From positions 1,488,001-1,552,000 of the forward strand of contig BQUP01000001.1 of the NCBI GenBank assembly GCA_022835595.1: DNA of 64,000 nt, in the 5' to 3' direction. This stretch comes from Cystobasidium ongulense. Taxonomy: Eukaryota; Basidiomycota; Cystobasidiomycetes; Cystobasidiales; Cystobasidiaceae. Position 1 is the first letter of the stretch. Each line of letters begins with the position of its first letter. Shown here one piece after another: positions 26,172 to 64,000 of this stretch. The position numbers and the translations under genes are program-made. The notes under the pieces were generated by a model, which worked only from the letters and a program-made list of their open reading frames with translations, did no database searches and had not been told where the DNA came from.

Positions 26172-27773
26172 TAATGAAATAGCTTGAAACCCCCGAAGAA
26201 ACTTTATGCCAATCTTCGCCCAGCCTACAGCTTACAACTGCCACCTGTAGAATTGCTGCATACTAAGCACTGACATCTATTCAATATGCTTACGCCCTAG
26301 TCTAGCGGAAGCAGACGAAGACTCTCAAAGGCGCGAAACCTTCGACAGCCTCAGCCTGTGTGGCTACGAGCTCGGACTCGAGCTATCCTTCACTAGCAAT
26401 TTTGGAAGGTCATGCCGGACCGGTGCATCAGGTATATGCATGCAACCTCTGTACCAGCCTCTTGCATCGAGAATGCGACACTCCATACATCTCTACCGCC
26501 AGTCCGATGCACATCGTCTCAGAAATGATACACCCCTGCTCTTTTTCCACATCCATCCAAGTCCTCCGTTTCTTCCCCTGCCTGTCTTGACTTGGACGAT
26601 GTGATTCGTCAATCCAAGGCAAGCTGAGTAGTGTGCAGGGGTGTCGATTTGAGGAAGCTTGCAAGACTGTTAGACGGAAATTGAGGTTTGGACTCTGGGT
26701 GCACTCCCCGTAATCATCGCATGCGGAGAAGGCTAGGCAAGCAACGAGCGTCGCCGCGGCGGCGATGTACGTGGCAGGTGAACTTGAAGATTGGCAGATT
26801 ATGTGCGTATGGAAGCGATACGGTATTGACTGCCGTGGCTGCCCTTGCACTCGTGCCTGTGTTTCGAGTCGCCACTGCCTTGTACATATGACCGGGTGTC
26901 GCGGCACCAAACGTCGCAAGCAGCGGGGGTTGTTTGGACAGAAGCAGTGGGGAGCAGCGACAAGTTTAACTGAAGGGCCGTTGGAAGAGCGCGTGCGGGA
27001 GTGATGCGGACCGAAGGAGATGCTTGTTAACCAAAGGTGCGGGATATCGACCAAGTGTCAAGGAAATGCGACGGGATGTGAAATGGAAGGGTAGGATGGT
27101 GCTGTTGGTGATTGATGGCGTGCAGTGTTCTTGACAGCCATCGGAGTCGTCCTCTGTCGAAGCTTCCTTCTGCATGGACAAGACATGCTCGTGTCGTTTG
27201 CCGATAGCCGGAGCCAGGAAGCGAGCGGCTTGAGCTGACGAGGATGGACAGCTTGATGACTGTGAGAAGTGTGTTTCAGATTACAATGATGTCGAGTTTG
27301 CAGAGTGAGTGAGTAGATTGCCTAGCTATTGCACGCTCTTTGATACACATTTCATGTGGCTTTCTTTTTCGATTGCTCGTTGTCCTCGACAGCGACGCAC
27401 TTGCTCGCTTGCCTTCGCTCGACCTCGCCATCAACATCGTACCAAGTACCACATCAAGTCGAGTCAGTCAGGTCCCGGCCCTTGCATCTTCTGGCTAGCT
27501 CGCGACACGTCGGCCGGAACTGTCGAAGCAAGGTGTGAGACAGGGTGATTCACCTCACATAGACGACAAGGGCGTACGGACAGGTCAGGACCGCCTCGTT
27601 ATACTGCAACAGAGTCAGTGACATTGGCGTGCTGCTCTTGTCTCTCCATCTCGTCTCGTCGGGTCTCGAGGGCCATGCTCTGCGCTCTGCTCCACAGCGT
27701 GCAGTAGGATCATCTACAGCTACAGCTCCATCTACAGGATACACTCACTCACCTGCTCACAAGACTCCAATAC
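26172..27773. other. gene-poor stretch before the CYC8-like gene
   Basis: About 1.6 kb. A long minus-strand frame (26428-27054) has no start-proximal signal or domain I can name, and the plus strand has only short frames. It may hold later exons of the candidate at 26013 and a long promoter/5' UTR for the corepressor gene. GC-rich around 26750. Confidence 0.4.
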
Positions 27774-30700
27774 ATGGCATCTGCTGAGATTGATAGCAGC
27801 AGCAGCAATACCCAGCAGGATCAGCACGAGCGACAAGACCCATCTCATCACCATCAGCAGCCACATCACCATCACCGCCATCATCAGCAGCAGCAGCAGC
27901 AGCAACCACCCCGACAGCACCACCACCACCACCACAAAGTGCACCACCACCATCACCATCATCAGTCATTGCACTCTACTCAACAACACCATTCTCCTCC
28001 TTCGTCGCCGTTCCCATTCAGAACCGAGAGCCCAGCACTCGAAATGAACAAGTCGTCGGCTCCTCAAAGTCCAGGCACAGGCACTCCCAATGCGAGTGCT
28101 AACGGCCATGGGCCCGTAGCTGCTCAACCCCAAGTCATCAGCAGGACTGGAAGAGCAGTCCCTTCGATATCGACCAACTTTCAACCTTCCGCAGGCAGAG
28201 TGGCCGACTCGGCTGGCGGCACGCGATCAGCAACGATGAACGCGGCTCAGGTCCATCATCAGAGCAACGCACAAGGAGCAGGCCCACCATCTGCTTCGAC
28301 GTCGCATCCACACCATCATCACCATCAACAGCATTCAAGCAGTCATCAGCACCACCCTTCTTCGAACCCGCCGAGCGCCCTACCTTCTGGATTTGGTGGG
28401 CCCATCACAGTTGCCGAAGCATTATCAAACGTCAACAACCATACTGGCCCTATGTCTGGCCATCCTATACCACCTTCTAATGCAACTGCCTCTCCCTGGT
28501 CAGCGTCTGTGGGCGGCCCTACGTCTACTCACCCTCCAAATTCAGTAGCCGGGCCAAGCTCACATGCCTCTCAAGGACCGCCTGAAGCCTCGTCCGCTGC
28601 AATTACCCTGCTTGAAGGTCGAGCAGGACCAGGAGGGCCGATGGGTGGAACTGTTGAACCCAACGGACACATGATGGGCGGCAATGCGGGAGCTGCTGGA
28701 GGGGGAGGCACCACAACCGAAGCCCATCTCCTATCATTAAGAGCAGTAATAGAACATGGATCGATATTAAATAATGAAGCAGCAAAAGAAGCAAATTTTA
28801 GTGTCGAAAGAAGGAAAAACTTACCTATTATACTACAAAATTTAGAAACAGAAACAGAATTATGTTATTCTGAAATTGGTATTATAGCTTGGAATTTAAA
28901 TGATTATGCTAAAGCTTTTAAATCTTTTGAAAATGCTCTAGTTAGAAACCCTTTTTGTTTAATCTCTTTACAAGGTTTAGCTAGATTCTATCACGAAAAA
29001 GCTAATGGCACAAACACAAATGTTAATTCCCTTTCTTCTTCATTAATTGGTAATAGTGGTACTGGTGGTGTGGCTGGAGGACCAGGAGCAGGTCTAAACA
29101 ACATCGAAGATAACTATAATAAAGTCGTAGATTACGCTTCAAGATCATTAGCTATTGATGATTCTGGAAATGAAGGAGAAATGTGGTCTTTAATAGGTCA
29201 CGCTTTTCTACAATTAGGTCAAATGCCTAGAGCCTATTCGTGCTATCAACAAGCTATAGCAAAAGCAGTCAAGAAAGATGATCCTAAACTTTGGTATGGA
29301 ATCGGTATTCTGTACGATCGTTATGGTAGCGTCGAACACGCCGAAGAAGCGTTCGCAAGCGTACTCAAGCTCGATCCAAGTGAGTTTCTCTCCTTACCTT
29401 TTCTGATGCAAGGACCTGTATGACCGTACTGATGTACCTTGTTTGCGATATCTTAGACTTCCACAAACGCGAAGAAGTTTTCTTTCGCTTGGGTATAATA
29501 TACAAGCTTCAAGGCAAGGCAGATGCCAGTCTCGAAGTGGGTTGAATCAGATATCTCATATACGAGCGTATAGTATAACGGGGGGGCTGATTCTCTGTCA
29601 TTCTGTGATCTTCCCAGTGCTTTCATTACATCCTGGCTCGCCCACCGGAGCCTTTGAAAGCGGTCGACGTCTGGTATCAGATCGGACATGCTCACGAGCT
29701 GAAACGGGATGTAAGCACTGCGTAGAGTCACTATGCCGCCATTGAGCACTACTGACAAAAGTGTAATTAAACAAAATCAGCTCTCACTTGCTAAAGACGC
29801 GTACGAACGTGTGCTAAGCACAACTCCTGACCATAGCAAGGTCTTGCAACATCTAGGAGGCATCTATCTGCGCGAAAATACACCTTTTCATAACCCGCAA
29901 AAGTGCATTGATTACATCTCGCAATCACTAGAGCATGGTGAGGAGCTACTTCTTCGTTTTCTGGAACATAGATATTTGGGACAGTCTACTGATAATGCTT
30001 TTATATCGTTCTCAACTCCATCAGACTCGACCGATCCCTTCTCGTGGTATTTACTCGGTCGAGCTTTTATGCAACAAAATAACCACGGCAAGGCATATGA
30101 AGCATACCAACAAGCTGTCTACCGAGACGGCAAAAATCCAGCATACTGGTGTTCTATCGGCGTGCTGTACTTTAACATCAACCAATACCACGATGCACTG
30201 GATGCATATACACGAGCCGTCCGAATCCATCCTTTTATTCCCGAAATCTGGCAGAATTTAGGTATACTATATGAATCATGCCACGATCAACTGGCGGACG
30301 CAACGGACGCCTATCAACGCGCAAGCCAACTTGATCCCGCTAATGTAGAACTTGAACGGCGCTTGAAAGAAGTTAGAAGTGCTCTTAGGACTGGGAATGA
30401 GATCACTACTGCTCCACCCCCACCTCAGGATATTATGCCAGATAGTAAATCTTGGCAATCGGTTCATATGGACGTATCAGGTGCAAAACCGGTTTATCTC
30501 GATTCGAAAAGTATATCTCAACATCCTAGTCCTACACTAGGGGAATCTGGATTGGGACTCTCAAGCTTGGTTCAGGGAAGACCACCACCTGGCTCATCAG
30601 TAGCTGGAGTAACAGGACCATTACATCAACGAGGTTCGCCGCAAAGTGGACCTGTTATACTTGGAATGCCTCCTTCTGCTGCTTATGGGCCAGGTGGACC

Positions 30701-32252
30701 ACACGAAGGACCAAACGGGAGAAGAAGATCTTCTTTTACCCGGCCTGATTCTTCTCATGCTCATCATGCACCTCCTTATCCTGGTCAATATCTTGAAGAA
30801 ACCATGCGGCTAAGACATGCCCAACCCGGACCTCCCGGAGCTCATCTATTGGGAGGTCAACATGGTGTCAACATGGCAAGTCGACCTTCTGTACATTCAC
30901 ACGCTTCTACGTCATCTGGTCAACATGATATCGACAGAGACGTCTCGCAACTCCCATCCCGTGGTGGTGCGCTAGGTGGCAGAATGGCAGGGTCATCAGC
31001 TCGAAGTTCAGCTTATCCAAGTGATAGACATTCACCTCATTCTATGCAGGACCCTGCATTTAGACATGCTATCTCACCTAGCAACTCACCACGTATGGCT
31101 GCTGAGCATCTTCAAGGTGGTGATCATCCGATGTATGAGAGAGAACGCCAGATCAGAAAAGCTGAGGTGGAAAGAGAGGAACAGCGAGTTGGAAGTAGAG
31201 CTGGTATGCAACAACAGCAACAGCAACAACAACAACAACAACAACGAAGGCCACCACCACATGGCGCCAGTGCTCACTCTCCAACAGACGCACGGACGTC
31301 GGCTGCTTATGGCCAGAGGGAATATCCACCTGGATCATCTCGAAGACTTGGCTCACCGCCTGCTGGTCCTGGTACACGATATGCAGATGAGCGACCTACG
31401 CCCGGAAGAAGGGTTAGTGGATCTTCAAGACCAAACCAGCCTCCTGGGTATCCATATGAGTATTATCCGAATAATCCATCAGGATATCCAGATCCAAGAC
31501 GGGATCCTCGGTTCATTCACGACCCCAGATACGATTATGCTGAAGTAGCAGCTGTAGAACGAGAGAGAATGCAAGCTGAACGAGATCGACAAGCTAGGAG
31601 ACCACCTCCTCTTTCCATGGCTGCTGGAGCAAACGATCCAGACGAGGAACGCAGAAGAAGGGAAATTGAAAGGAATGGTGGCGCAGGAATAATTAGGAAT
31701 GGAAGGCGTGATATGTCACCTCTTGATTTGGTTGATGCGCGAGAGAGGGAGAGGGACCTGAGAAGACCTCCTCCTCCCAATGATCAACCTGGTGCGCTAC
31801 CTAGTATGCGAACTGCCGCTCCTGCGAGAGGCCTTCCAGGTGGACATTATCCCACACACCAAGATCAGGGAAGACGATCGCTTGATAATGGTCAGAAGGC
31901 TTCTGCTGATCGAAGAAAGCCATACAGGCATCCGGTAATTTTTCTTTTTGATGTAACTCATACCGAATGCAAGCATGCTGACCTTGGCCTATTTATCGCA
32001 AAGGACGTGACTGCTGAAGACCATCAAGGACACCATCAACCTTACCGACAGCCTGAACAGAATTTCGATGATGAGACGGACATGGCAAATGCTCTCATTG
32101 GCCTTTCTGGCGGTGCTCCTGGCTCGGAGACTGCTCCTCCTCCACCTGCCTCAAGCCGTGGTGGAGCATATAGAGCTGGTGAAAAAAGACCTCTTTCAGC
32201 TCATGAGGACTCACCTTTCAAGAAAGCTCGCGGACAGGATGATATGGCCTGA
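27774..32252 (+). CDS. CYC8: CYC8/SSN6-like TPR transcriptional corepressor
   Basis: TPR subunit of the Tup1-Cyc8 general corepressor in the nucleus. Exons 27774-29379, 29457-29536, 29618-29710, 29781-29937 and 30025-32252 give 1,387 residues. Residues 1-320 are low complexity with long His and Gln tracts. TPR repeats run from about 320 to 757: YSEIGIIAWNLNDYAKAFKS F, WYGIGILYDRYGSVEHAEEAF, VFFRLGIIYKLQGKADASLE, and the strongly conserved DPFSWYLLGRAFM, KAYEAYQQAVYRDGKNPAYW CSIGVLYFNINQYHDALDAY. The rest is Pro/Gly/Ser/Arg-rich with a 12-residue glutamine run near 31207-31245. Two stop-free introns, 29938-30024 and possibly 31935-32003, have lengths divisible by three; with the second removed the protein is 23 residues shorter. 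The TPR part is much more AT-rich than the 5' end. Confidence 0.9.
31207..31245 (+). repeat. polyglutamine-encoding CAA/CAG tract
   Basis: An interrupted CAA/CAG run in the last CYC8-like exon encodes about a dozen glutamines. Length variation among strains would be expected for such a tract. Confidence 0.8.
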
Positions 32253-37232: not shown

Positions 37233-40200
37233 TCAGGGATTCAGCATTGATAACAAACCTACTCTCCAGTGACCGAAATGTCCAGTCTTCGGCTTCTCGG
37301 GCTTCTTCAGTAGCTCTAGATCCGCTTGTGAGGGGTCCGCATCAGCGAGCAGAGCGGTGTCGAGATCGTGGACCTTTGCATCTCCCAACGCAGTCCATAT
37401 CTCGTCTATTGAGGATGATACATAACTCAGCAATCCTGCTACCTCATCTTCCAAATCTTTGGCCTCGCGAAGCAGTGACTCTTCGGAACCTAAAGCGGCC
37501 TCGACTGTGGATATCGAAGACAGCCTGACAGATGCGCGAGTCAAGCTTGCAGTGGATGTGATAAGCGTTGCTAATCGCCCGCCCTCCGCTGCCAGTCTTG
37601 ATAAGCTTCCTAGTAGGTACGATTCTTCGAATATCGAGCCCTTTGCTCCAGTAGCTGCCTTCCTCATCTGTTTCTTGGCCGTCCTCCGCGACGCTCTAGT
37701 ATGAAAGGTTAGACATTGCTTTCAATGCAGTTGTGATAAAATAAACTCACCCGCTTTTGACAGTCCCAGCACGTGTGGAAGCCGCTGCCGCAGTATATCG
37801 TGTGAAAGCCGTTGTCGCCGCTGTGCCGGCATCGGTCTGCATATCGACGTTGTCGAGAGCATCGTCTCCATCGGCCGGCATTAATCGACCGTAAAAGTTG
37901 GCTGGATGCAAAGCTCAGATCACCGAAGCCCACGCATTTCAGGCGATGACACGTACCAGTATCAGATAGTCGCTTTTCGCGAAGCTCATGCAAGCGGGCT
38001 ACCTGTTTCACCACTTGATCTTTGATTTCTGCAGCTTCTTCAGAGAGCCTCTCCCGGCAATCACGAATTGCAGGCAGGATGAGATCAACCACAAGCTTAG
38101 GCATTGCATACAAGCTGGTCTAAAGTCGTAAATCAGCAAAAGAAGATCCCAGATAAGTCGAGCTTGCACTCACTAGACGCAGAGCTTCCGAAAACAAGCC
38201 TCCTTCGCTAAGTACCGACACCGCTCCCTTGACATTACGCCCATACTCCAGGAGAACACGGCCAGCCTCTGCATGTCTGGCTTTGCCCTGTAAATCCTCT
38301 GTATCGGTGCCAGAAATATCAGAAATTGATCATTCTACGTGCTGCTCTTGTACGTACCAGCGACACGCTCAGCAAGCTGGGCGATTTCTTCGCCTGACAG
38401 CTTCTCTTGCAGGGCGATATCAAAGAGTTCGACCCATGTCAGCGCCTTCTGGTGCGCCACCATCGCCTTCCGGGGCTGTGAAGCCAGAAGGTACGAGAGC
38501 GCAGCCTCGTGACATCTATTGTCCTTCATGAGCCAGTCACCTCGGAGATCGAGTACAGTCTGCTGAACACGTCAGTACATTGTTGTGTCTTTATCGATGG
38601 GTGTACTGCACTGACTCTGAGTTCCTCGGGTGACGAAGTATAGAAGGACACAGCAGCATCATAAAGCTCGTGTTGCTGCATATATTGCAAGGCTTCGTCG
38701 AAACGCTTCTTCCCGGCCAATGCCAATTGTCCGAGTGCACGAGAGAACCGGTTGAGATGATCGTCAATCTTGAATCGCTGATAGAAGGTATCGTAGGCTT
38801 TCAGCTCGCGCAGAAACGGTATGTATTCGCGTGGATCCTATTTGGACGTATTAGCTACATAGAAAGCTGGATCCGATAGGTGGACATACCTTTTGACTGT
38901 TTTGGGCCACTGCTAAGACCAAGTCGAAATCGTAGATACCCAAGGCCACATCAAACAAAGTATTTGCATCGGCCAGGAAGATGATGTACTTCACTGCATC
39001 GTCTGCAGCTTGTTGATTCAACGCTGAAGAGTTTGAATTAGCACGTGAGGAAGCATCTAATTACCAGCTGCTGCCAAGAACCTCACCTTTGATTCTAGTC
39101 AAGACTCGCAGGGCAGATTCGAGATCCGGGGGCGACTGGCATGCGTAGGTAGTCAAGACAGCATTGGCGTACTTGACCAAATCCTTCGACTCTAAGTGCA
39201 CTCTCAACCGCTTGCAGACGGTATCCACTTTATCGCGGTCACTGACAATATGCCATTAACATCGTCCAAATCGAGATTGTGTGAGGACTCACTCGGTTTG
39301 TGAAATCGCCTGAGAAGGACTCAAGGACGCATACATTGTGCGCGTAACGTTTTCGTTCCTGTGATGATAGGAAGATCAGCGGAGTCTGGCCAGATGTGTG
39401 AGGTCCAGACGTACTTGAGTCCAGTAATGAAGAGACCTAAGTATTCCGTACTATCTATTTGGTCTACAAACAGCGGGAGATCCTGTATGAATGCTTCACG
39501 ATTATGGTCGCATAGTATATTAAGATCAATACGATGACGCCTGCAAACCAAGAATGCTTCTCGGTACTCCTTTTGATTCAAGTATTCCCGGACCACCTGA
39601 AGCACCAACGGTCTCGGCGAGATAGTCTCTAGATTGCCACGAGGCATCTGAAGAATTATTGACATGGTAGATGGAACGACTGTCACAATGCGTGATCCAC
39701 GCTCAACCTTCCTTGCGTATCCCGTCTTGACATCCCCTTGCGCACTTGCCCCGGTCGTCTCGATGTGCCCGCTCTTGGGCAACGCTTGCGAAAAGCCAGC
39801 TGCCATGATGGCCTCCGAGTCTCCGTTGGCGCCGAGTAGAGTTTGTAGAAGAACGAAGCGAGCCTCGTGTTGTAGATTGGTATATATCAAGAAGTCTCCG
39901 CCAATCGCAAAAGAGCTGCAACCGCTTGCCAACAATTGATTATTGAGATACAGCCGGCCGCTTTCTGACAGCGCAAGGACCGTCCGCTGGTTGAGTACTT
40001 GTAGTGAAGGACAAGATTCGGGAAGTGTGGTGATTAAGTCGTTGTCGAGAGAAAGCACGCGGCCTGTCGCCGTTTGGACAACAACTTTGCCATAGTACGC
40101 AGATACCTGCATTAAGGAATCCGAAAATTGACCCCATTTCTTGCTTTTCACGCTCAAAGTTGTCGAATCTAGGCATATGATGGCTTCCAGTATAACATCG

Positions 40201-42254
40201 AAGGTGCTTCTACTGTCTCGTGCCAGTAAATATACTTTGACGCTGTCTCCATCTACAATGACTGATATCTGCCTCGCGCTCGTGGACGCCGCCGCATCGT
40301 CCAGCTTATATCTTCCTATATGAGTCGCTATTGGGCTCGCCCGCTTCTTTGCCTGCCACCGCCATACGTCGATTTCGTTTTCAGGCATGAGGGCCACCAG
40401 TATTTCTGCGTCTTGGGCAAAAGCTAGGTGAACAGGCGTCCGGCCATCGGGTGTTTGTAGGGCTAGCGAAGACATTGGAGGAGGGATATTCTGGTATCGG
40501 AAAGGCGTTAAAAGTATACGAGCTTTGTAAAGGCTAAATCAGCTGCTTTCTTGTCAATTCGTGTGCATTTCAGAAGCTTACAGCCGTCCATGACCGCCAC
40601 GGCGCCTGAATCATACGGTACCTTCCTATTGGAATCGTAGGTCTGCCATGCTAGGTTTCTCTGCTCAACATCCACTGATGTCAAGACAAACAAAGACATT
40701 GGCTTCTCTGGATGCCACATCACGCTTTCTAGTGCTTGCCCAGTATACGCCGTCCGGAACAAGGTCTGCTTGAGGTACCAATGACTGATGGAATGAGATG
40801 AAAGATAAGCGACGAAATTGACTTGCGCGAGGATGAACATACTAATTATTGCGTCTCCAGAGTTGTACGCAATGTCGCTTATTCTCATTTTCGACACCGC
40901 GCCTTTCCAGGTGTACAGCTAGTATAGTAGAATCGGCATTCCACGACAGTCGTCTAACGAGTGTATTGTACTCTGGTCGCTCCTCCTTCAGAGAAAACTC
41001 ATATCGTCTCAGGCCGTTGCGCTCGAAAAAGATGATCTGGCTAGAGTTGAGCGCAGAGGCTGCGATTGTGCTGCCAGAAGGTTGCCAAGCAAGGGCCCCT
41101 TCCATGCCAGGTGTTGGCTCAGATGTCGCTTGAAGGACAGCTGTCCGGGAATAAAACCGTAGACGCCGTTGCTGTTCGTTCGACTGACGCACTCCAAAAG
41201 TTGCGGAGATAACAAAGAAAGCACCATCGCCTCTCCAAGATATACGGATTGTCTGGTCATCAAAGCTGGTTGCAGCTGCAGGTGCCTGTATCGATGTACC
41301 AGGTTGACTGAGCGTCGAAGCAGCAGGCAGGCCGGCCACTGCATCGCGTCCAGCTTTGCCGATGGATCCATGGAATTGAGTTTCTTGTGCACCCCAGCCA
41401 ACATTGACAGGTTTATCTGCAGGATCATTGCGTTCAGGGATGCTCGGTCAAAGAGCGTTGAACAAAGCTATATACTAACCTTCACCGAAGTCTTCAGTTC
41501 TCAATATCGATTCTGCGAGGACATCGAAAGTTTTGGTCATCTCGACCAGGTTGTCGTCGCCTATGACACAGTCAGGGCGGTTTTAGTAATCAACTACTGC
41601 TGTATGATAGCTGTAAAGGTACTGTACCTGTTACGAGGACCAACAGCTCTTCATCGGGCGACCAGCCCGCAGCCTTTATACCGGATTCGACAGATCCAAC
41701 CACCTCAATCTGCACGGGCAACAGTTTAGATACGATAGAGCAATAGCGAAATAGCGGAGTCTCACTTTGTCTTGACCAGGCAATAGATGGTCTTCCAAAT
41801 TCACCACGACAATGTCGCCTCCGGCCAGAATGGCAGCGAGAGCATTGGCTTCAGCGAGGTATTTGAAGTCGACAAGGTGTTTTCCATCAGGCAGCTCGAA
41901 GGGCGGCTCAGGAGGTGCTTTGAACGATGCTACAGGCTGAGGAAAAGAGGTGAACGTGATCGATGATTTTTCGACGGTGTCGATGGTAATGCATCGTCAG
42001 CATTGCACAGGCAGACAACGACAGCGGTGGCTTACAGAGTTTGCGTAGTCGACTGCTGCATTGGAGATAAAGATCTGAACCTCCACACCTCCGTCTGGGA
42101 GTGGCCGTTCGCTTGCAATGTAGATGGTCTCGCCTTGACCAGAAGTTATGCCTTCCAGCTCTTCTGGACGTATCGCAAGGCCTGTATATCTCGCTTCGGG
42201 TTTCTTGCCCTTGACGGCCCGTACATCACAAGTAAGGACCGTGAGTGACCGCAT
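37233..42254 (-). CDS. ELP1: Elongator complex scaffold subunit ELP1 (IKI3/IKAP)
   Basis: Scaffold of Elongator, which makes cm5U-type modifications on wobble uridines of tRNAs. The ATG at 42254 starts MRSLTVLTCDVRAV; roughly a dozen exons run to a stop at 37233-37235, for about 1,350-1,400 residues. The N-terminal half is beta-propeller: KPVNVGWGAQETQFHGSIGK, IRISWRGDGAFFVISATFG and GALAWQPSGSTIAASALN are typical. The C-terminal half is helical repeat: KKRFDEALQYMQQHELYDAA VSFY, CHEAALSYLLASQPRKAMVA. Near the end, SRRTAKKQMRKAATGAKGS is the basic tRNA-binding segment, followed by IFEESYLLGSLSRL. Only the span is given; inner exon borders were not all fixed. A TCACGTG box lies at 42324-42330 in its short upstream region. 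Confidence 0.9.
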
Positions 42255-48011: not shown

Positions 48012-48807
48012 ATGGGTGCCTACGCTTACGTTTCAGAGATCTCCAACAAGAAGCAGTCCGACTTGGGTGCGTCGGAATCAGCTCGCTGGCTGTTCGTGTC
48101 GCCAGGCGAGGCCAGGTGGAATCGTCAATTTATCGTGTGCAGGCATGGAAGGGACGAGGAAACTGCTGGCTGGCGACATGAAGAGGCGGTAACGAACCTA
48201 GTAAACAGGCATCCATGCTGATGTGATGCATCACCAACAGCTCGTTTCCTCCTCCGAGTCCGATGCTGGGAATACCGTCAACAAAATGTCGTCGCCCGCA
48301 TTTCAAGACCTTCGCGACCTGACAAGGCCCGCCGATTGGGATACAAGGCCAAGCAAGGATACGTAGTCTACAGAGTCCGTGTCCGCCGAGGAAACAGGAA
48401 AAAGCAAGCCGCCAAGGGTGCCACCTTCGGTAAACCTACCAACCAGGGTGTCAACCAGCTCAAATTCCAGCGATCTTTGAGAAATGTCGCTGAAGAGCGT
48501 GTTGCAAGACGATGCGGTGGTCTCCGTGTCCTCAACGTGAGCAGCAATGTCTACAATTTCATAGCTGGTACCGGTTGTCGTGCAAGTGTGGGAGTGACGG
48601 GCGTGCTCAACATGTGCTGGAGAAATGCTGCTCAACCATGCAAGAGAAAGCGATAGGGTTGAAGCAGCACCAGCAGCATGAAGGAGGCACAGCATCGAAC
48701 ATGTCCGCACCCACTCTTTGCATCAACTCGTCGTGCCAGCTATGAAATTTCTAGCATCTGAACGAAAATGCTGACCGCCCACTTTCTCTTTTTATAGTCT
48801 TACTGGA

Positions 48808-50937: not shown

Positions 50938-51725
50938 TCAATGGCTCTTGCCTGGCTTGTCAGAGTGGCCCAGCCCTCTATTAGGGTCTATGATCTCTCG
51001 AATGCGTTGTTTCTGTACGAGTGTCCAACATTTGCACGAGCTTTCAGCCGGATCCGAGCTAATCGATGAATATGACCCACAATAACTTTCATTTCTGCGA
51101 AGCCGCCCTCTGTCTTACGGTCGTGTATGAGATTCGGCTCAGATTGGCCGCTTTGGTATAACCACACTCGAAAACGGCCGGCAGTGTCTATGAAGGGCTA
51201 GCTCAGGTATGGGTGATAGGCTTTGAATACAAAACGAAAGCTCACCTGGATTGCTGCGTGGAATCAGGGTGACCGCCGATAAGGTAGAAGGACTTTCGTC
51301 GGACGTTGCTGGAGAGTCACTAGAGGGAGAGAAAGTTGCGAGTAGCTCTGTTTGAACCCTGCAGGAAGAGCCAATTCAGTACGCAGACGAATTATTTACG
51401 TGTACGTCTTCTTACCAGGTAGCGCGTGCTCCCCTGATATTCATTTGACATCATGTGAGATTTGGCGACTGTAGCCCGAGGATGATGAAACATACCAGCG
51501 ACTAAAAGCAAGTCAGGTAGATATTCAAATAGTGTTAGAGAGTGTGACATACCATCGATTGCAATATTCAATCACTACGTGTACTTCAGATTTCAGATCT
51601 GGTTTGATAAAGGTCGACGGGTCCAGCACATCTTCGGTTTTCCTTGCTGGTTCGCTTCTGACGGCCGAAGCATTTCCGATATTCGACGAGGTTGGCTGGC
51701 AGTCTTCACATTTGGCAGCATCCAT
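50938..51725 (-). CDS. Rdx / selenoprotein-W-like thioredoxin-fold protein
   Basis: Small redox-family protein with the thioredoxin-like Rdx fold. Six exons, 51553-51725, 51496-51501, 51416-51433, 51246-51358, 51081-51187 and 50938-51012, give 163 residues. Exon 1 ends VHVVIEYCNR; a 6-nt micro-exon and an 18-nt exon then produce CRWGARATW, so the redox motif is YCNRCRW (CxxC) followed by VQTELLATF. The later exons give GRFRVWLYQ, HDRKTEGGFAEMKVI and KQRIREIIDPNRGLGHSD, all standard for fungal Rdx proteins. The CxxC uses Cys, not selenocysteine. No smaller set of exons yields the family sequence. Substrate and partner are unknown. It ends KPGKSH. The ATG at 51725 is the first in frame. Confidence 0.85.
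51496..51501 (-). other. 6-nt micro-exon encoding part of the Rdx CxxC motif
   Basis: Minus-strand sequence is ...TTTTAG, TCGCTG, GTATGT..., with a CTGAC branch-like element upstream. The six bases complete the second Cys codon, encode Arg and begin the Trp codon. Skipping keeps frame and gives CNRWGA. Confidence 0.75.
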
Positions 51726-51886: not shown

Positions 51887-53911
51887 CTAATCCCATCCGG
51901 AGATCTCACTCTCGAGTGGGTCTCTGTTCTTTTCTAGCACTTTCTGTTCTGCAATGACTAGACAACTCAGCTGGGCGTAGCCTTCTTCGCCCACAGCAAT
52001 TTTTATTAGATCTTTAGAACGACCTTCTTTTTCTATCCTCTTCCAAGACCGCATACACTGCCAAAAATCTCTTCGGACTTCCTCGCGCCAAGTTTCCATC
52101 ACTACGCCTTCTTTCGTTTGAGAATTTCCAACTTCAATACCTTGCGCTTTAAGGAAGCTGACTATTTCCCGCTGATACGCTTCACTTTCGCCCAAATGCG
52201 GCGCTCCTTGCCGATGGCCGACCTTTTCAACTGACCGTCCTAAGGATCTAATTCTCGCCTCGTCCTTCTCCATAAGGGCGATCATTTCGTGCCTTTCAGG
52301 TAGTATGGAGGGTAATGCCAAAATCCAAGCGATCAATGCCCCTTGTACAGCATTAGAGAAGCGATAACTGGTAGACATTATGTTTCCACACCAGAAAAGA
52401 GATGCAGGCCCGTGCAGAGAAGAGAAGGACATTGTGTGTTCATATAGAGGTCGCACTGCATTTGGATATATATGAGGCTAATGAGCCGCTGAGCCCTGGC
52501 TGTGCTGGATGCTCACAGTATAAATCAGTGCTGACCACACCGGGCCATTCTTCCTGCTCTGGTTCAGGCAAAGGGACTCCAGGTCGCCTCTGCAACACGC
52601 CTCCTCGCTCCAGGTATTCGTATCGGATAATGAAGCCAGTACCAAGATAGACCACGTCGACGCTGCAGTGCATCAAACTCAGTCAGCTTGAAGACCAAAG
52701 GATTTACAGCACTGGCCTTACTCCTCGAGCTCTGTACCGTCGCTAAACACGATCCCATCAGATGTAAAATATGATATGCGATCTTTGCGCTCAAAAGGCC
52801 ATGTAGGTGGGAGGACTACTGTCCGTGTTACAGAATGATAGATCTAGCATCTTGTCAGCTTAATTCGCCTTTGAATGAGCTCAATCAGTCAAACACACCT
52901 TTTTGGCATGCCGCGATATCTGTAAGGACCCATCTAATCCGCTCGGACTGTACGTCTTCATCAGCAGGCCTCTCAAGACGCGTCGAATGAACAGAATAAA
53001 TCTCGCCTACCCAGCTCCAATCACCAAAACCGTTTTGTCCTTGAAAGCCGCTGGTCCTCTGTAGAAGGCGGAATGAATGATTTGGCGGCCCGCTTTGCCA
53101 GAGAGCCATTCCTCCTCTCCCTTCCAATGCGGTATTGATGGATGTACTAGATGGCCGGTACCGTCAATCACTGCATCGAAGGTGTCCTCGTACTCCTGTG
53201 TACTGTTCGCAGAGCGAGGGAATGGCTTGCTCATCACTTTCCATTTCCCACCTTTGCCATGTTCCAGAGATCTCATCCAAGCTGCTGAATATACTTCTCG
53301 GTTGCATAGTATCCGCCGAGGCAGCTGTCGCCGAGCCTCATTTGCGTCGGTATTCGAGAATTTGAGTGGTGGTAGATCTTCAACGGGCGCAGAAGAGGTG
53401 CTTGCTTTTGTGTCTGCAGTCCTGTCCCAATCCTCTGGCTCTGAATCGTACAGACCCCATTTGCGAGCATAGTCTCGTAGATAGTCCAATACTACCGTCC
53501 AATGCGGAAACAAATCCGTATGGTCCGGGAACGGTGCATGAGGGAACGTCACTGGGTAGTCGAAGTTAGTGAATATCAAACATCGAGACGCATATGACAC
53601 CTACTCATGTGGACCGGAGTATTGGTACGCAATTCGGGGTATAGACCTGTCAAGGCAATCGAAGAACGAGGGTCTTGCAGAGTGTCATCGGGGAGCCTGA
53701 AGACTGCGAGTAAGCACAGTCTACATCGCAGATCAGAAAAGGCGACGAACCATTGTCCACCGAGTCCCTCGCGTCGTTCAAAGACTGTGACTCTCCAAGA
53801 CTCGCGCAACTCTTGCGGCAGGTCCTGCAGCGACTTGAGGAGCATTAACCCGGACGAGCCATAGCCAACAATAGCGATGTGCAGGCCCTTCTGTGTGGTG
53901 TGAGGAGTCAT
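51887..53911 (-). CDS. flavin-containing monooxygenase-like oxidoreductase
   Basis: FAD- and NADPH-dependent monooxygenase of the FMO/Baeyer-Villiger group; substrate unknown. The ATG at 53911 opens MTPHTTQKGLHIAIVGYGSS GLMLL, the FAD-binding GxGxxG, then ERREGLGGQW and GLYPELRTNTP, typical of FMOs. FDAVIDGTGHLVHPSIPHW corresponds to the FMO 'G.H..P' motif, and KDKTVLVIGAG is the second, NADPH-binding Rossmann motif. VDVVYLGTGF precedes the C-terminal part, which ends LESEISGWD at 51887-51889. Roughly seven introns; the span is given, not every border, and the protein is about 530 residues. Fungal paralogues act in detoxification and secondary metabolism, but the neighbours here show no cluster. 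Confidence 0.82.
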
Positions 53912-54454: not shown

Positions 54455-57400
54455 ATGTCGACCACCTACCAGGTCCAGCAGTTGCTGGAAAAGGTGAAGC
54501 AGCCCCGCTGTGCCCATGCCCTTCCACCTGGACGTGCCTGACTGACGAGTTCAAATTATCCACGCATCCATCCCAGGCTACGAGTGGTGATCCAGACTTC
54601 CGGTGGGTGTCTTAAAATGACCTTGCATGAGGTGTATAGCTCGCTGAGCCTGGCTTGCTGTTTCACAGAATCATGTTCCTGCAGGACATAAAACAGAAGG
54701 CTGCAGAGCCAACTTTCGCTATCGACGACCACACCGAGACTCGCCTTGTGGACCAAGTTCTGAACATGTTCAATGACTCCAACTCGGAAGTCAAGAGTCT
54801 GGCAGCGAGCACGTAAGTATTCGTACTCTTATGCGTTTGACACTTCTAAACGCTGACGCGATCGCTTGCTCTTTCGGCATCTATGCTGTGACTATGCAAC
54901 TTCGACTGCAACAGCATATCCGTGTTGGTATCCAAGGTCAAAGAGGCGCGCGTCCAAGTCATTATCGAAAAGTTGACAGTCATGACGAGCGCCAAAGACG
55001 ATGCTCTACGCGATGTGGCGAGCTTAGGTGTGTTGCAGTCTGCGAAATAAGCTATACATACACAAACTGAGGTTTGGCGATGATTGAACTGAAACAGGCT
55101 TGAAGACTGTCGTGAAAGAAATACCGCCCGAATCCAAATTGGCTGTAACAGCTTGCAACAAGCTTGCACCAAAGATCCTCGAGCAATTGAAAAGCGTCAG
55201 TATAGCCCTGTCCTCTTCTATCCGCGCACCCTGCATTAACACCCATGTTGGATCTTAGCAAACATCTTCTTCTCAGGACCTGCTCATTCAACTTATCGAG
55301 GTTTTGGGGGATATTTACGCGCGATTTGAAACAACGTAAGACAGTTAATGTGTTCAACCTGCGCTTCACAATTTACATGCTGAATCCGCGTGCTCGAACT
55401 TTTGATAGGATACGAGCTAGCTCAGCTGCGCAAAGCGAAGGGTTGACAGGTCTAACACCTTTGTTGAATGATTCTCGTGGAGCAGTCAAGAAGCGTGCAA
55501 TTCGAGCCTTAGGAAACCTTATCGCCTGCTCCAGCGAAGCTACCTTCAAAACCCTTTTCGAAGAAAATGCTCTACCAGCTCTGTCAAATGCGGCCGACGA
55601 AGAACAACTAAAGACAGCTATTTCGTTAATTGGCACACTGGCTAGCTCAGCTCCTCGAAGGTTTGGGAAACGAGTGCCACAAGTCCTTCCACATGTTCTG
55701 AAAGCTACTTCCGTTGACGATGAAGAGATCAAAGAAGTCGCTCTTCAGGTGCGGATGCCGTCTTAGTACCAAAGTTGTGATTTTGCTCTAACATACAGTA
55801 TGATAGACACTGGAAACACTGCTACTCAAGTGCCCTGCTGAAACTTCGCCATTCATGAAAAACATCATTGATGCGGCCGCCGAACTAGTCACATACGACC
55901 CCAACTATGCCACGATGGACGAAAACATGGACGAGGACGAAGCCGAAGCCGACGAGGACGCTGAGGATGAAGAGGACGAGGAAGATTTCGAGGAGGTGTA
56001 CGACGATGACGACGACACATCCTGGAAAATCCGTAGAGGAGCTGTAAAAGTCCTACAAATGCCCATTCAGACACGTCTAGAACTATTATCAACTTTCTAC
56101 AAGACCATTGCACCGGTGCTCATTTCACGCTTTGGAGAACGCGAAGAGACCGTCCGTCTAGAGGTCTGGAATACGTACACATGCTTACTTAGACAGACTT
56201 ATGTTTGGGGAGGCAATGTTATCTCGGTTACTCTTCCAACAGGAGACGAATCTTTACCAGGTAGCCGACCTGGGTCCCCAGCCATCAACATGTCTCTCAA
56301 GCGTAAAAGAGACGCCTTGCAAAAACAGTCAAACGATTCGTGAGTTCAGGATTGGCTAAAATGATGCTGTTCCAGTTTGACCGAGAAATTTGCATAGACC
56401 ACTTTCCCTACTGGCCTCACAAAGTGCACAAGTCACAAAGCTGATCATCAAGCAGCTCAGCGCAACAAAATCCCTAGCTCTCCGCCTAGCTGGCTTCCAG
56501 CTTCTGTATCAGCTCACGCTAGTACTTCAAGGCGGTATGGAGTCCAGCATGGCCACCCTGATGCCTATCCTCGAAGCCATTATCAAGACAGGTGAAAGCG
56601 GTGCGGTCGCAGGAACAGTCGGAGGGTCGATTACCAATCTCAAAATCCAGGTCTTCGCCTTTCTCGCTCTTGTAGTCAAAACACACCAGGTCCGAGCTCT
56701 ACAGCCAGTACTTGGCAAGCTAGTGACTCTCATTGTTTCGTCCATCGGGGATAGATCGCCAAAGATTGGTGCTGCAGCACTGGGTGCAGCTACAGAGCTT
56801 GCCCGACTTCTCCGCCCGGCCACTCCTCAATCACCAACGACAGCTACCGCTACCGGTCCCTTCATCAATCAAATCTATACGGCTACCACGAAGTGCCTGG
56901 AGAAGTCCAACGCGGACCAAGAAATCAGGGAGAAAGGCCTCGTATGCCTCGGCGATGTCCTGGCTTCGGCGGCGAGTGACCTAGGCCCCGATGTCCAAAA
57001 TGGCCTACAGATCCTAAAGGATCGACTCCGAAATGAAAACACCCGACTTATAGCTCTGATGACTATTTGCAAAATTGCGGAATCACCGACGTCTTCCGAG
57101 TCAAGGGATGTCTTTGGGCCTTTCATGCAAGAAATCGCATTCGAAGTCGGCGACTATTTGCGGAAATCAAATAAGCCTGTCCAAGCTGCATCGTTTGTTT
57201 GTCTCGAAGCCATACTGAGGCGCCAAGGAGAAAACTTGCCGCTGGATGGCTGTAATGCTCTGGTCACCAATCTTCAAACGCCTATCGCAAACCCGGACAT
57301 GCATCTCTCCAGAGCACTGAACTGCCTGAGTGCCCTTTTGATTGCTCATGCAGATACATTACCTACCATTCGGGAAGAAATCATGCCAATCCTGCTTCAG

Positions 57401-59358
57401 CTCATCTCTACACCGTCACAGATCACAAGCACCGCATCCGAGAGTCTCCTGAACTTCTTCATCGCATACGTGGACGCAGGAGCGGACGCATACGGTCTAG
57501 TGAAAGAGATCATCGACGTTGTAGGAAAGTCCGGAGGAAGCGTGCCCGTTCTTTACAGCGCTAGCAAATGTATTGGCGCAGTGCAGCATCGGGTAGCGCA
57601 GAGTGATCCTAACAAAGCGGCCGAAATTGTCGGCATGGTAGCAAAACAATTGTTGGTAAGTCACCGTACCGATACCTTAAAATCGACCTAAGCTTATCGC
57701 TGCGCAACAGCAGGCTAAGGATGCCAACCCTCTTGCGACATGCCTAGGGTTGCTCACAATGGGCGAGATTGGTCGAACCTAGTGAGTGGGACTGAGCAAA
57801 TGTTGTTTAAATGAGTTTTACTAATACGCCATTGTGTCATAGCGATCTTTCCAGTCAGAAGGGCGCATTCTCGTCTGCAGTGTCAAACCTCAGCGCCTCC
57901 AATGAAGAAGTCCGCGGTGCTGCCGCGTTCGCGATAGGTGAGTTACTGTCTGGCTATTGTTTGCGGGCTTGGTCTGACCTCGCCCTACCCAGGTAATATG
58001 GCTGCTGGTAGTCCGGCGGCCTTTATGCCTTCCGTACTGCAAGAAATCGAGAAAGCAGAAAAGGACGATCGCCGGATGCATTTGCTCCTAGGAAGCGTGA
58101 AGGAAATATTATCACACAGCTCGCCAGAGGTGCTCTCTGAACTCTCGAATACCTTGTGGTCGCCGTTATTCCAGCTCTGTGAGAATGCATCGGCTCAGCA
58201 GAAGTCAACGGAGAACGCTGCAGGTGCCAGCGCTAAAGCTGGCGACGAGGCAAGGTTAGATGGAACTCGAAACATCGCTGCGGAATGTCTCGGTAAAATC
58301 ACTCTAACAAATCCATCTTTATATCTGGGCCAGCTGCAGGTAAGTGGTGTCTAGGACGCAGGAGGTCAATATAACCAAACTCACGTGATGTCTAGTCCCG
58401 GCTGTCGTCCAGTTCAGCTGGTACTCGCGCGGCCGTCATCACCGCTATCCGTTTCACTTTCACGGGCGCCTCTTCCAGCTACGATGACCTGCTCGCTCCC
58501 CTCATTGTACAATTCTTGTCGCTAATGCACGACGAGGACCTTGTAGGTTGCGGTCTGCTGCGCTTGTCATCTATCAACTGATGTCTGTCTCTTTATTCCA
58601 GACTGTACGACGATTAGCTGTGTCTTCCCTCACATCAGCCGCGCACAATAAGCCGCATCTCGTGCGCGAACACATGGCAACTCTGCAACCGTTATTGTAC
58701 GAGCAAGCTAAGCCCGACCCCAAGCTAGTGCATGAGGTAGTTATGGGGCCCTTTAAAGTCAAAGTCGATGAGGGTTTGAATATCAGGAAGGTAAGAAGCA
58801 ATGGAATGCAGCAGACTGCGAAGATAAGCTGACCAAGGCGCTTGTAGGCGGCATACCAGTGCATGTTCACTCTGCTGGAAACTTGTCTGAACAAGCTGGA
58901 TATTGATGCGTATCTGAATCAAGTAATTGCTGGACTTTCAGACGACGACGATATCAAGGTTCAATGCTATCTCATGCTCGTCAAGCTCAGCCACGCCACC
59001 CCAACAGCGGTCATTCAGCGTGAGTCGAAACTATTTGCTCGGCATGCACAGAACACTGAGATTGTCAACAGGCCTCGACTCTGCTGCCAAACCACTGGAT
59101 GATGTGCTAAAAACCAAGCTCAAGGAGACAGCAGTCAAGCAAGAGGTGGAAAAGCTAGCCGAAATGCAACGCTCCGTGCTCAGGACGATGGTCTCTCTCC
59201 TGCCCTTGGTCTCGCAGGCTCATACTCCTCGATTCGCTTCGTTCGTTGATGACATCAGAGCAGGACCGCTCTACGGAGGCGAGTTCAGGGAGATGATTAC
59301 GACTGCAGAGCAGACACGATCATCCGCTAATGGAATTGACCGAATGGATATCGACTAG
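54455..59358 (+). CDS. CAND1/TIP120 cullin-associated exchange factor
   Basis: HEAT-repeat protein that exchanges substrate receptors on cullin-RING ubiquitin ligases. Exon 1 (54455-54493) encodes MSTTYQVQQLLEK, exon 2 (54577-54602) is only 26 nt and gives ATSGDPDF, exon 3 (54669-54812) gives IMFLQDIKQKA, exon 4 (54915-55027) VSKVKEARVQVIIEKL. Later exons contain VKKRAIRALGNLIACSS, the marker segment DDDDDTSWKIRRGAVKVLQM, and FYKTIAPVLISRFGEREETV RLEV. The end, LNIRKAAYQCMFTLLETCLN and DDDIKVQCYLMLVKL, is the TIP120 domain. Total about 1,250-1,300 residues in more than a dozen exons. A strongly acidic block around 55917-56020 is longer than in animal CAND1. Stop at 59356-59358. Confidence 0.9.
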
Positions 59359-59548: not shown

Positions 59549-62500
59549 TCAAAGAGGATCCTCTTCATCGGCACCGAGCAGCCATCCGACACCGAGCTTT
59601 AGTCTACTTTCCAAAGCAGTTCGGACATGACCATCTCTGGCTGGAGACTGGGCACTCCTTTGAGCAGGGGACGCTGGACGTTCCCCACGCCCCCTAAATA
59701 GAGATGAGGGCGACATTGAACGTTCCAACGAAGAGTCGGGGGTCGATGTTCGGAAGGGAAGATAGGAGCTTGCTGCTTTCCCAACTGACAAGGCCGCTCG
59801 TGCTGCACTTTCCGCGGAGTGGTGAATAGCCATGGAGGAAGGCGTTGTAGGGCGCGATGGTAGATTGAAAGGGAGCGATAGTCCACCTAGAGACGTAGGA
59901 GATGTTACGGGTGCAATTTTACGTGCTGCCTTGGTTGGCGAACGTGGTTGTGCCATGCTGTCCGTGATTTGCCAGACTGAGAGGACTTCAGGTATATCAG
60001 TCGGAGGACACAATAACAGAGCTTGCCCGAGGAGTTCTTTCCTTCGACTTAGATCACTTATTCCAGCGTGACGCCCAAACTGGAAGCATGTTCTCCAAGC
60101 CAAGTCGGCAGCTTGAGCGGCCTTGTCTTTATCCCGTGATCTCCGGATCTGCTCAACGGCTTTAATCATACGTTCACAAACATCTCCAGCGCGCTTGCTA
60201 TCCGACGCTTGTAAAGCTGCATCGGCAAGCATGCTTAAGACTCTCGTCTCTGCTAATGCGTCGCCTCGGAAACCTAACTTTGCAACGAGTTCGAGGATAA
60301 CGTCGGGGTGCCGATAAGCGTCCTCGTTGCTCGCTAACAGACGAGAGACAAGTTCAAGTTTATCTTGTGTAAGGCGAATCTCGATGGGCGTCATGGGTTG
60401 GCCTACGCTGTTGAGTACGTGGTATGAGGCCAGTCTTGAAGTTGCTTCGATAAAGTCTCGTTCGCGTCGGATCTCCGGAGTATTGGGCGCGACAGAAAGG
60501 CTATGGGAGAGCAGAAGCATCAGACCAGAGTCGAAGAAGCAGATGGCAAGACACTCACCAGTCGAAGGCTAGCTTCATATTTCCAGAGTGTAGATTTCCC
60601 GACTCGGCATTATCGTAAAACTCTCGCGAGGCGGCTAACACTATAGCTTGCTCTGTTAAAGTATCCAAAGGGCGCTCTCCCGAGGAGGGCTGGAACAAAC
60701 TTCGAGCCAATCCGAATTCTGTCAAATAAGGCGTCAACACTGCTTGGAGGACGGTAGAGGTTCCTGTATCACATACTTGCACTACTCAGCAGACCGCCAA
60801 AGAAGATCTTGGTTATTTCTTGCTGGCTTAACGCTGAGAAAGCGGGCTTTGGGGCATTCTCCGCGCGATTAGACTTGGCACCTAACTTACACAAATCATC
60901 CAACAGGCTGATCCATTCGTCCTCATCTTCGAAATCTTTTCCTATTCTACCTTGACTATCAGACTGTGATACAGCTGCCGGAGAAGTCTTGGCAAGACGA
61001 TCCGCCCATAGCCTTTGTGCTTTTTCATCCGCGCTGAGGGTGATAAAGAATTGTAGAGTGACAGGGGTATTCCAGCGCTGGAATATTTCGGCGGCTTCAA
61101 GGTGAAGGTCAAGGGTATCCAGCGCTCTGGATAAGGCAGTCGCATCCCAATTTTGGAGGTGCTTGAAAAAGGCCGTTGGGGGTAGTGGTGTCTTTGATAG
61201 AAGGGTCCCAGATGGCTCAGGTCTTATAATGGAGAGTAATGTGTGTGTGATGGATGGCGTGGTCTGAACTTCATCGAAAGAAGGAAGACAATCGAATATC
61301 CGAAGCATCGCTTGTATGCTTGCTGAAGAGGACCCTGGATGGCCATAACAGCAAGCAAGAGCCAATCGAGCCAAATCTTCGTTCGACTTGATAATACGTT
61401 GACTTGCTGGTAGGGTAGGTTTCGATGATTCGAATATAGCGGCTATCGTCTCTAGATTCCCTGGATTTACTTGCCCGACATATCGCATCATCCAGTCGAA
61501 TAGTAAAGTATCGTGAAGTGACGAATCAGGCTGGCCTGCTCTTTCTCTTTGGCTATCAAGAACATATAGATATGGAAGTACTTGACCTCTAATATCTTGC
61601 ACAATAGTTTCAGGTGTAGATTGTGAGAGGTATGCATCGACAATATCCGATTCAGAAGATTGTTGCCATTTCTTTAAAGACCAAGCTTGTTGAATTGCGA
61701 AAGCTGAATTGGCTGATCTTCGGTCATAAACGAGTCTAGATAGCAGACTTAGCTGTTCCCCGAGCGCATCTAGACCTGGTAGACCTTGAGCGGCGCCGTA
61801 TTGAACGAGTGAAAGAGCATTGTCAACTTGTCCTGTTGCTTCATCTAATTCTTCAACTCTTGTATTGTACCAATTTGCTAATTGCTGTGCGGTCAATGGA
61901 TTCCAGGTCGGCTTCGCCATCCCTAGTATCTCATATAAAAGAGGCTCAGCCGCCCAGTCTTGAGTATCTGCTCGCCAGGCTTCTCCGTGCTGTTCGACAT
62001 CGTTATCATGGCGAGCGTCGAATAACGGTAGAAGGTCTGTATACTCGACAACGTCGGAAAAGAGAGGGATGGTATCTAGTATATCAAGTCGGAAAGGGTT
62101 GAGATCACGAGCGTGTCGCTTGAATAGTATCCTTAAGTTTTGTATTTGATTGTTTGCAGCTGCTGAGTAGGCACTGTCCATGATAGGTGTATCGACAAAG
62201 TCAGGGAGCTCGGACAAGTTACTCGTGAGCTGGTCTGCTGGATCTATGTCCATGGCCTCTTGGGCATGCTCGTTGTGAGTCGAGTCTGCCTGGTTATCGT
62301 CTTCGTCGAATTGCCACGATTCCTCCACATCACTGTCCTCGTCCATGTCTGCATCATCATTTCGCTGGGTGTCTGCAGGCGCTTGAGCAGCTCTATGGAT
62401 GGAGGAAGTCCCAGATCCGCTAGCTACGGGAGAAGCCCCATTACCATGAATCTCCTGCCATGTTCGCGTCTTGTCGTGGAGTTCGAATAGCTGTAGTCGC

Positions 62501-62835
62501 TGCTGTAGTACTTGCTTGACTGTCTCATCCTCCTCCAGCAATCTACGCAGGTCTTCCACGCAGGTGTCGTCGGAAGCTGCATTACGCGCGAGGATCAAGG
62601 CAGTGTTGCCGGAGGTTGAAGAAGCAGATTGAGATAAACCCTGTTCTGTAGACGATATAGCTGCATCGAGCAACGCTAGCTGCGCCGAGCTGTCCAACAC
62701 GCGTGTCCCTAGTACGGCATCGATCTTGAAATGATCATCGTCCTTCAAGACCGACAACAACTCCTCCGCCAGTGCCAAGGTCCAGTCTTCAGGAGATGCA
62801 TCTATCCATCTGTTCTTCGCTTGAGCTGCCTGCAT
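59549..62835 (-). CDS. SEC39: Sec39-domain protein of the Dsl1/NRZ tethering complex
   Basis: Peripheral ER protein of the Dsl1 tether that captures COPI vesicles for Golgi-to-ER transport. Exons 60777-62835, 60559-60739 and 59549-60500 give 1,063 residues from the ATG at 62835 (MQAAQAKNRWIDASPEDWTL). Helical throughout; the domain markers are EILGMAKPTWNPLTAQQLAN WYNTRVEELD, ATGQVDNALSLVQYGAAQGL PGLDALGEQLSLLSRLVYD. An acidic block sits around residues 165-215. The exon 1-2 junction uses a 37-nt intron in the chosen model; an alternative join nearby would change only a few residues. A Ser/Pro-rich part precedes the C-terminus. Members are very divergent in sequence, so the family call is good but not perfect. 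Convergent with CAND1, 190 bp apart. Confidence 0.75.
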
Positions 62836-64000
62836 CGTCGCGGACCAGTATATAGGATGTGTGCGTGTCACCACGATGATCGAGCTCTTGCAATCTCTCT
62901 AGCTTCTTGACGAGTCCTCACTCTGCAGGTCTAGGACAATTCATTCGTCGCGCTGTTTGACGAGCAGACTAGTCGGTCGGCCCCGTTGCTGAAGAGCTTG
63001 GCCTGATTTATACGGTCAGTCGACTTGCAAGAAACGGCCAGGCTGACCGTACGAGTTGCAGCAACAAGGACCTTGGATCGCACAGCCCACTACCGCTGCA
63101 AGATAAATACAGCCGCCAATCTCGACTGTGCCAACAGCTTATGAGTGATTAGGATACTCCGACATTCCTGCTGCTGTTCTCGCTTCACATCTGCAGACCT
63201 CGTCCACCATTAAGCCTAGCACTCGATCAACCTGGGCCTTCACAGATGGAAGACGTGGAGACAATAGTTAATGCGATAAGCGAAAGCTGTTATGGCATAG
63301 AAGCCATCCTCGCGATTCGTGTCAGTTTATATGAGAAACACAAGACAGCGTTTACGGTTTGCGAAACCCTTCTGCAGGATACGGTAGCATAGTAGCCGAT
63401 AAAACTGCTGGCAAGCCGAGCCGAGAGAGACACACCCGCGACTTCTGCAAAACGACTGAAGCTGGTGAAGCAGATCAACACTCGACATACTGAACTGCAC
63501 GTCTCTGGATAGATATTGTGAGGAGAATAATCCTTTCTGCGCTATAGTTATTGGGCTGCCAGGGTACCGATACCGACCAGGTCGAACGGAATGGCCCATG
63601 AGATTTGCGAGACGTTACTGCACAGGTACATACCAGCAATATGAGAGGTGGGGATACCGTATCTGATAACATGGTGCCATCGTCCAACACCACACATGCA
63701 TGACGCCCGGTCTTTGGCTCTCCTCGGTTCTTTGTTCATTTACCATACCCGGAGGTTGTCGGTATCTTCGGCTTGTTTGCCCCCCATCCGTTCCTTGAGC
63801 TTGCGGCACTACTAGGCTAGTGTAGAATACGACATAGGTACCGGCAAATGGCCAGCTTTTGGAACCGTAAGTTGTTGTATCTGCCGCCCGTATCAAGGCA
63901 GTCCAAGCATAGCATATGCCTGATGTAGATAGCAGGCACGATAACCCTGACTGACGGTCGACTCCCTGTACTGGTACTGCCAGAAGTGCCGTAAGTTATT
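62836..64000. other. terminal stretch without a supported gene
   Basis: About 1.16 kb. The first part is the SEC39 promoter and 5' UTR. Minus-strand frames between 63290 and 63896 overlap in all phases and could be pieces of an intron-rich gene continuing outside the window, but none shows a domain I can name. No RNA gene or repeat is evident. Confidence 0.4.

Follow-up and report, generated by a model that had tools for sequence, protein, structure and literature searches.

Results

The stretch of Cystobasidium ongulense DNA analyzed in this study, referred to here as the window, spans 64 kb with a G+C content of 49% and belongs to a genome of 19.8 Mb in 19 contigs. On its minus strand, positions 51725-50938 contain a predicted six-exon gene encoding an Rdx (SelW-like) protein of 163 residues. 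An open frame of 196 codons (51890-52477, minus) lies just upstream on the same strand; Pfam gave no match to it at E 0.001. Elsewhere, Pfam matches were found to Elongator ELP1 (39324-40538, minus), Sec39 (60772-62898, minus), CAND1-like (56381-57688, plus) and Cdc6/ORC-like (11362-13227, plus) proteins. TPR repeats were matched by Pfam in two neighboring open stretches (27708-29420 and 29715-32249, plus), which perhaps belong to a single Ssn6/Cyc8-like gene. No Rfam family matched between 50500 and 52600 at gathering scores.

In the gene model, the Rdx coding sequence comprises 492 bases including the stop codon and is interrupted by five introns, all features being on the minus strand. Exon 1 (51553..51725) begins at the first ATG of the open frame, the putative start, and runs to EYCNR plus the TG of the second Cys codon, its 3′ end at 51553 reading TAT TGC AAT CGA TG. 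Intron 1 (51502..51552; 51 nt, phase 2, GTATGT...CTGAC...TTTTAG) is followed by the micro-exon TCGCTG as exon 2 (51496..51501), which supplies the last base of the Cys codon, an Arg codon and the TG of a Trp codon. Intron 2 (51434..51495; 62 nt, phase 2, GTATGT...ATATCAG) has a weak acceptor and leads to the 18-nt exon 3 (51416..51433), which encodes GARAT and ends with the TG of a Trp codon. Intron 3 (51359..51415; 57 nt, phase 2, GTAAGA...CTGCAG) precedes exon 4 (51246..51358; VQTELLATFS... to SNP), and intron 4 (51188..51245; 58 nt, GTGAGC...CATAG) precedes exon 5 (51081..51187; DTAGRFRVWLY...EGGFAEMKVI). Intron 5 (51013..51080; 68 nt, GTGGGT...GTACAG) is followed by exon 6 (50938..51012), encoding KQRIREIIDPNRGLGHSDKPGKSH and then a stop. 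The 3′-end frame of the initial annotation had overlooked this last intron. Left unspliced, it gives the tail VIVGHIHRLARIRLKARANVGHSYRNNAFERS and a Pfam Rdx score of 67.4 bits; splicing it gives VIKQRIREIIDPNRGLGHSDKPGKSH, which resembles the solved bacterial relatives, and lifts the score by 8.7 bits to 76.1 bits.

The crowding of introns in the 5′ half of the model has a regular form: between 51552 and 51359, three phase-2 introns surround 24 coding bases, and each follows a TG (CGATG, CGCTG, ACCTG). The reading frame survives when either the 6-nt or the 18-nt exon is lost, and also when both are. Among 59 model introns collected in the survey described below, TG stood directly before seven, and three combined TG with a unique phase 2.

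Designation of the product as an Rdx/SelW-like protein was borne out by two profiles and by solved structures. The spliced protein matched Pfam Rdx (PF10262) over profile positions 1-74 of 74, its 76.1 bits standing against a gathering cut-off of 22.6, and it matched TIGR02174 (CXXU_selWTH; SelT/SelW/SelH) with 37 bits (cut-off 34.2). With the micro-exon in place, it carries CNRCRW near the domain start, in keeping with the CxxC or CxxU followed by xW expected of Rdx proteins. Solved relatives 2p0g, 2obk, 2oka, 2ojl, 2fa8 and 3dex were matched at E 5e-10 or better; the other 14 of the 20 chains listed, mostly from antibodies, gave weak matches (E 0.02-1) and were disregarded. The alignment of YCNRCRWGARATW, which includes the micro-exon, with the bacterial YCTQCQWLLRAAW is gap-free, and with both the 6-nt and 18-nt exons included, YCNRCRWGARATWVQTELL aligns with YCTQCQWLLRAAWLAQELL of 2obk without a gap. 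Like the bacterial Rdx chains (2OBK, 2OKA, 2P0G, 2FA8, 2OJL, 3DEX), the fungal protein has CxxCxW, RAxW, ELL, GGFxExK, KQR(I/V)R and LGH motifs. Unlike them, it is extended by ~40 residues at the N terminus, and the loop leading to its DTAGRF segment is longer; five introns interrupt its gene, with three clustered around 24 coding bases.

The CxxCxW motif was present in all 18 matches that the profile found across a single phylum (80 bacterial genomes). It was also present in 80/80 Pseudomonas loci kept of 550 relatives, a biased set that was fetched partly by peptide patterns containing the motif. These two sets overlap by one gene and, being entirely bacterial, test the motif and not the intron positions. 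A search of GTDB contigs and IMG/VR with the spliced protein found no relatives. Within its own genome, the locus is the one Rdx-family (SelT/SelW/SelH-like) gene detected: an exon-by-exon profile search, which a paralogue made of small exons could escape, gave a single match to PF10262, lying over its exon 5. The product is a putative thiol-redox protein. MIEN1 and mouse SelW are named as Rdx-family relatives, and the redox-active disulfide of MIEN1 is reported at -225 mV (PMC3527542).

When the micro-exon region was re-examined on the minus strand, every exon/intron boundary proposed in the initial annotation matched the sequence, and the six-base exon completing the CxxC is confirmed as a prediction from sequence. 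Inclusion of TCGCTG between CGA-TG and GGGAGC gives CGA TGT CGC TGG GGA (R C R W G), whereas skipping gives CGA TGG GGA, with the frame intact, Cys-Arg gone and the first Cys retained. The codons read across the junction agree with the earlier claim that skipping keeps the frame; two companion claims needed adjustment. The first placed half of the CxxC on the micro-exon, which does complete the motif; of the Cys codon (TG|T), however, it supplies just the final base, the other two lying in exon 1. The second held that a skip isoform would lack the second Cys and be redox-dead; that Cys is indeed lost, but the first remains, so the product would be a monothiol. At 6 nt between GT-AG introns of 51 and 62 nt, exon 2 falls within the range of a micro-exon (up to about 30 nt between canonical introns of normal length). 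Its length, like that of the neighboring 18-nt exon, is a multiple of three, a property of switch-like exons.

Omission of the small exons lowers the family match to differing degrees. Without the 6-nt exon, the Pfam Rdx score is 60.4 bits, still above 22.6, and that of TIGR02174 is 24.8 bits, under its cut-off of 34.2. Without the 18-nt exon, the Pfam score is 55.8 bits. In the 119 nt that separate exon 1 from exon 3, only two AG...GT segments (6 and 10 nt) are flanked on either side by introns of 38 nt or more, and the 6-nt segment is the sole in-frame one. When the 119-nt stretch was shuffled 100,000 times with dinucleotides preserved, 10 shuffles contained an equivalent YAG|Y-NNN-TG|GTRNGT segment, the first intron being held to at least about 38 nt and the second having no minimum length. 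With looser donors, the same shuffles yielded 160 per 100,000 (any GTR) and 568 per 100,000 (bare AG/GT). No notable RNA structure was found around the micro-exon (z = +1.30), 182 of 200 shuffles folding at least as well.

Intron-like spans were surveyed in 264 kb (the window plus 200 kb) by demanding a donor, a branch site, an acceptor and open flanks, with the reversed sequence as an imperfect null. Spans of 50-79 nt were found 56 times in the real and 12 times in the reversed sequence. The excess was smaller at 80-99 nt (13 vs. 6) and absent at 100-150 nt (18 vs. 25) and at 110-119 nt (3 vs. 4). A looser count gave the same picture, with 34 real and 34 reversed spans of 115-119 nt. Introns 1 and 2 lie within the length peak, and the 119-nt intron that skipping would demand lies outside it. 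Relative to the 59 model introns, which must contain chance spans given the 12 at 50-79 nt in reversed sequence, intron 1 is at percentile 0.44 for its donor and 0.58 for its acceptor, and its CTGAC is a branch site of the CTRAY type. The acceptor of intron 2 scored lower than those of all 59 and is the weakest of the gene. No CTRAY site is present in introns 2, 3, 4 and 5. Low scores for introns 3 and 4 are built in, since only GTRNGT donors were used to train the donor model.

Exons of 30 nt or less also occur elsewhere in the 264 kb: three under a strict rule (17, 17 and 25 nt) and four under a laxer one, vs. none in reversed sequence. The survey is blind to the Rdx gene, as it demands a stronger acceptor than is present there and an open frame of 25 codons past the second intron. 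The strict-rule exons all lie in the 200-kb stretch, outside the window, and all exceed 6 nt. The 25-nt candidate is on the plus strand at 48737-48761 of that joined stretch (C1 1,000,001-1,200,000 of the same genome), and its flanking introns pass the model; the two 17-nt candidates are on the opposite strand.

Discussion

In the current study, we characterized a six-base exon within the redox motif of a fungal Rdx gene. As read from the DNA, the micro-exon is well supported and is of a kind already in print, although none was found in a fungal Rdx gene in the titles and abstract openings of the open-licence papers listed. The account that we consider most likely is that of a constitutive micro-exon in an intron-dense gene, with skipping as a rare error; the exon would probably be a constant part of the transcript and not a switch. 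Two of the five short introns sit six coding bases apart within the CxxC, leaving a 6-nt exon between them, and each intron would be recognized across itself (intron definition). For intron 1, the GTATGT donor would pair with the acceptor nearby; excision of intron 2 would use the second GTATGT, and the order of the two is presumably free. If intron 1 were removed first, the second GTATGT would sit behind an exon of normal length. Pairing across short introns could include the exon without exon definition, which is hardly possible for 6 nt, and the usual mRNA would include the micro-exon and encode YCNRCRW. Counting against constitutive use, mis-splicing could be common, given the weak acceptor of intron 2 and its lack of a CTRAY site, which introns 3, 4 and 5 share; in addition, the 119-nt skip is in frame and its product scores above the Pfam cut-off.

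Such an arrangement has precedents in fungi. Cryptococcus neoformans, likewise an intron-rich yeast with ultra-short exons, is reported to have exons down to 1 bp, and its genome averages 3.35 introns per kb as compared to about 10 per kb in the Rdx gene (five in 492 coding bases) (PMC3990503). A 1-nt exon in Fusarium CYP621A and an 8-nt exon in Phanerochaete CYP5141A1 are described inside conserved P450 motifs (PMC12940212). Like the Rdx micro-exon, these are easily overlooked in annotation, but the CYP621A exon is needed for the frame (PMC12940212), whereas the 6-nt exon is frame-neutral.

Among the alternatives, the one that survives best, though it is unlikely, is that productive vs. non-productive splicing at this gene, by retention of intron 1, 2 or 3, sets the level of the protein and not its isoforms. 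Introns 1, 2 and 3, which were the ones tested, each bring a stop if retained, so such mis-splicing would mostly lower output. The weakness of the intron 2 acceptor fits this account. Expression control that depends on retention is reported in C. neoformans (PMC5006051). On the other hand, a stop or frameshift is described as the rule for retained introns of that yeast, with 7% of retention events able to yield an alternative protein (PMC5006051), and nothing at the Rdx gene indicates raised retention. An altered in-frame protein would come only from exon skipping, either by the 119-nt skip or by skipping of the 18-nt exon.

The possibility that the 6-nt exon is a regulated switch, whose skipping yields a CNRW isoform without the second Cys that tunes redox activity or acts as a dominant-negative binder, appears rather improbable. 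Skipping would change Cys-Arg only, in frame, and leave a product that is still recognized as Rdx at 60.4 bits. A published fungal precedent exists in Trichoderma Xlr2, where a microexon carrying two zinc-cluster cysteines is reported to be a glucose-dependent switch (PMC11121469). The two cases are alike in that a conserved motif (PCRRCE in Xlr2) owes cysteines to a tiny exon, whose inclusion decides whether the domain is whole; they differ in that inclusion in Xlr2 reportedly depends on glucose (PMC11121469), whereas regulation of the Rdx exon is hypothetical. Splicing in C. neoformans is described as condition-responsive (PMC5006051), and its repertoire includes exon skipping (PMC3990503). 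More than 6% of its coding introns are reported to have an alternative form, with 49% of those events keeping the frame (PMC3990503). On the side of skipping, skipped exons across eukaryotes are described as generally short, although their flanking introns are longer (PMC6142364). Over 99% of the coding introns of two varieties of C. neoformans are reported at identical places (PMC5006051). In contrast, alternative splicing in this yeast is said to be mostly intron retention with a small contribution to the proteome (PMC5006051). At the Rdx locus itself, the skip intron would be 119 nt, a length at which the genome sample has no excess of spans; skipping would pass up a better acceptor in favor of the weakest one in the gene; and the structure around the exon is unremarkable. 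The suggestion in the initial annotation that splicing could gate redox activity is not supported: intron length, acceptor strength and the splicing of C. neoformans all lean toward constitutive inclusion. More doubtful still is a conserved redox switch, in which stress-dependent skipping would turn the Rdx dithiol (CNRC) into a monothiol (CNRW), with the splicing state set at the paired GTATGT donors. If a switch did exist, the putative finding would be of greater importance.

That the micro-exon is illusory, the Cys coming from another exon or parse or the protein truly having no second Cys, is barely credible: the junctions are predicted, the skip product passes the Pfam cut-off by itself and intron 2 contains another AG followed by TCGCC, but exon 1 joined to that AG reads CRQISHDVK and then a stop in the frame of retained intron 2, whereas the 6-nt segment is the single in-frame one, and its motif, spacing and both flanking donors fit.

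The exon also bears on annotation, as this redox motif is one that automatic gene finders could lose. Dropping the six bases keeps the frame and still passes Pfam, so the loss would go unnoticed and the protein would be called CxxC-less.

The hexamer-plus-donor stretches TCGATGGTATGT and TCGCTGGTATGT differ at 1 of 12 bases. An origin of the micro-exon by tandem duplication was considered and rejected, since outside these stretches the likeness of the introns does not exceed that of shuffled sequence: 452 of 2000 shuffles did as well as introns 1 and 2, and 29 of 2000 when the hexamers and donors were included. The CxxC presumably predates these introns because bacterial relatives carry it, and the likeness of the hexamers presumably reflects the R-C-R-W codons plus the donor consensus.
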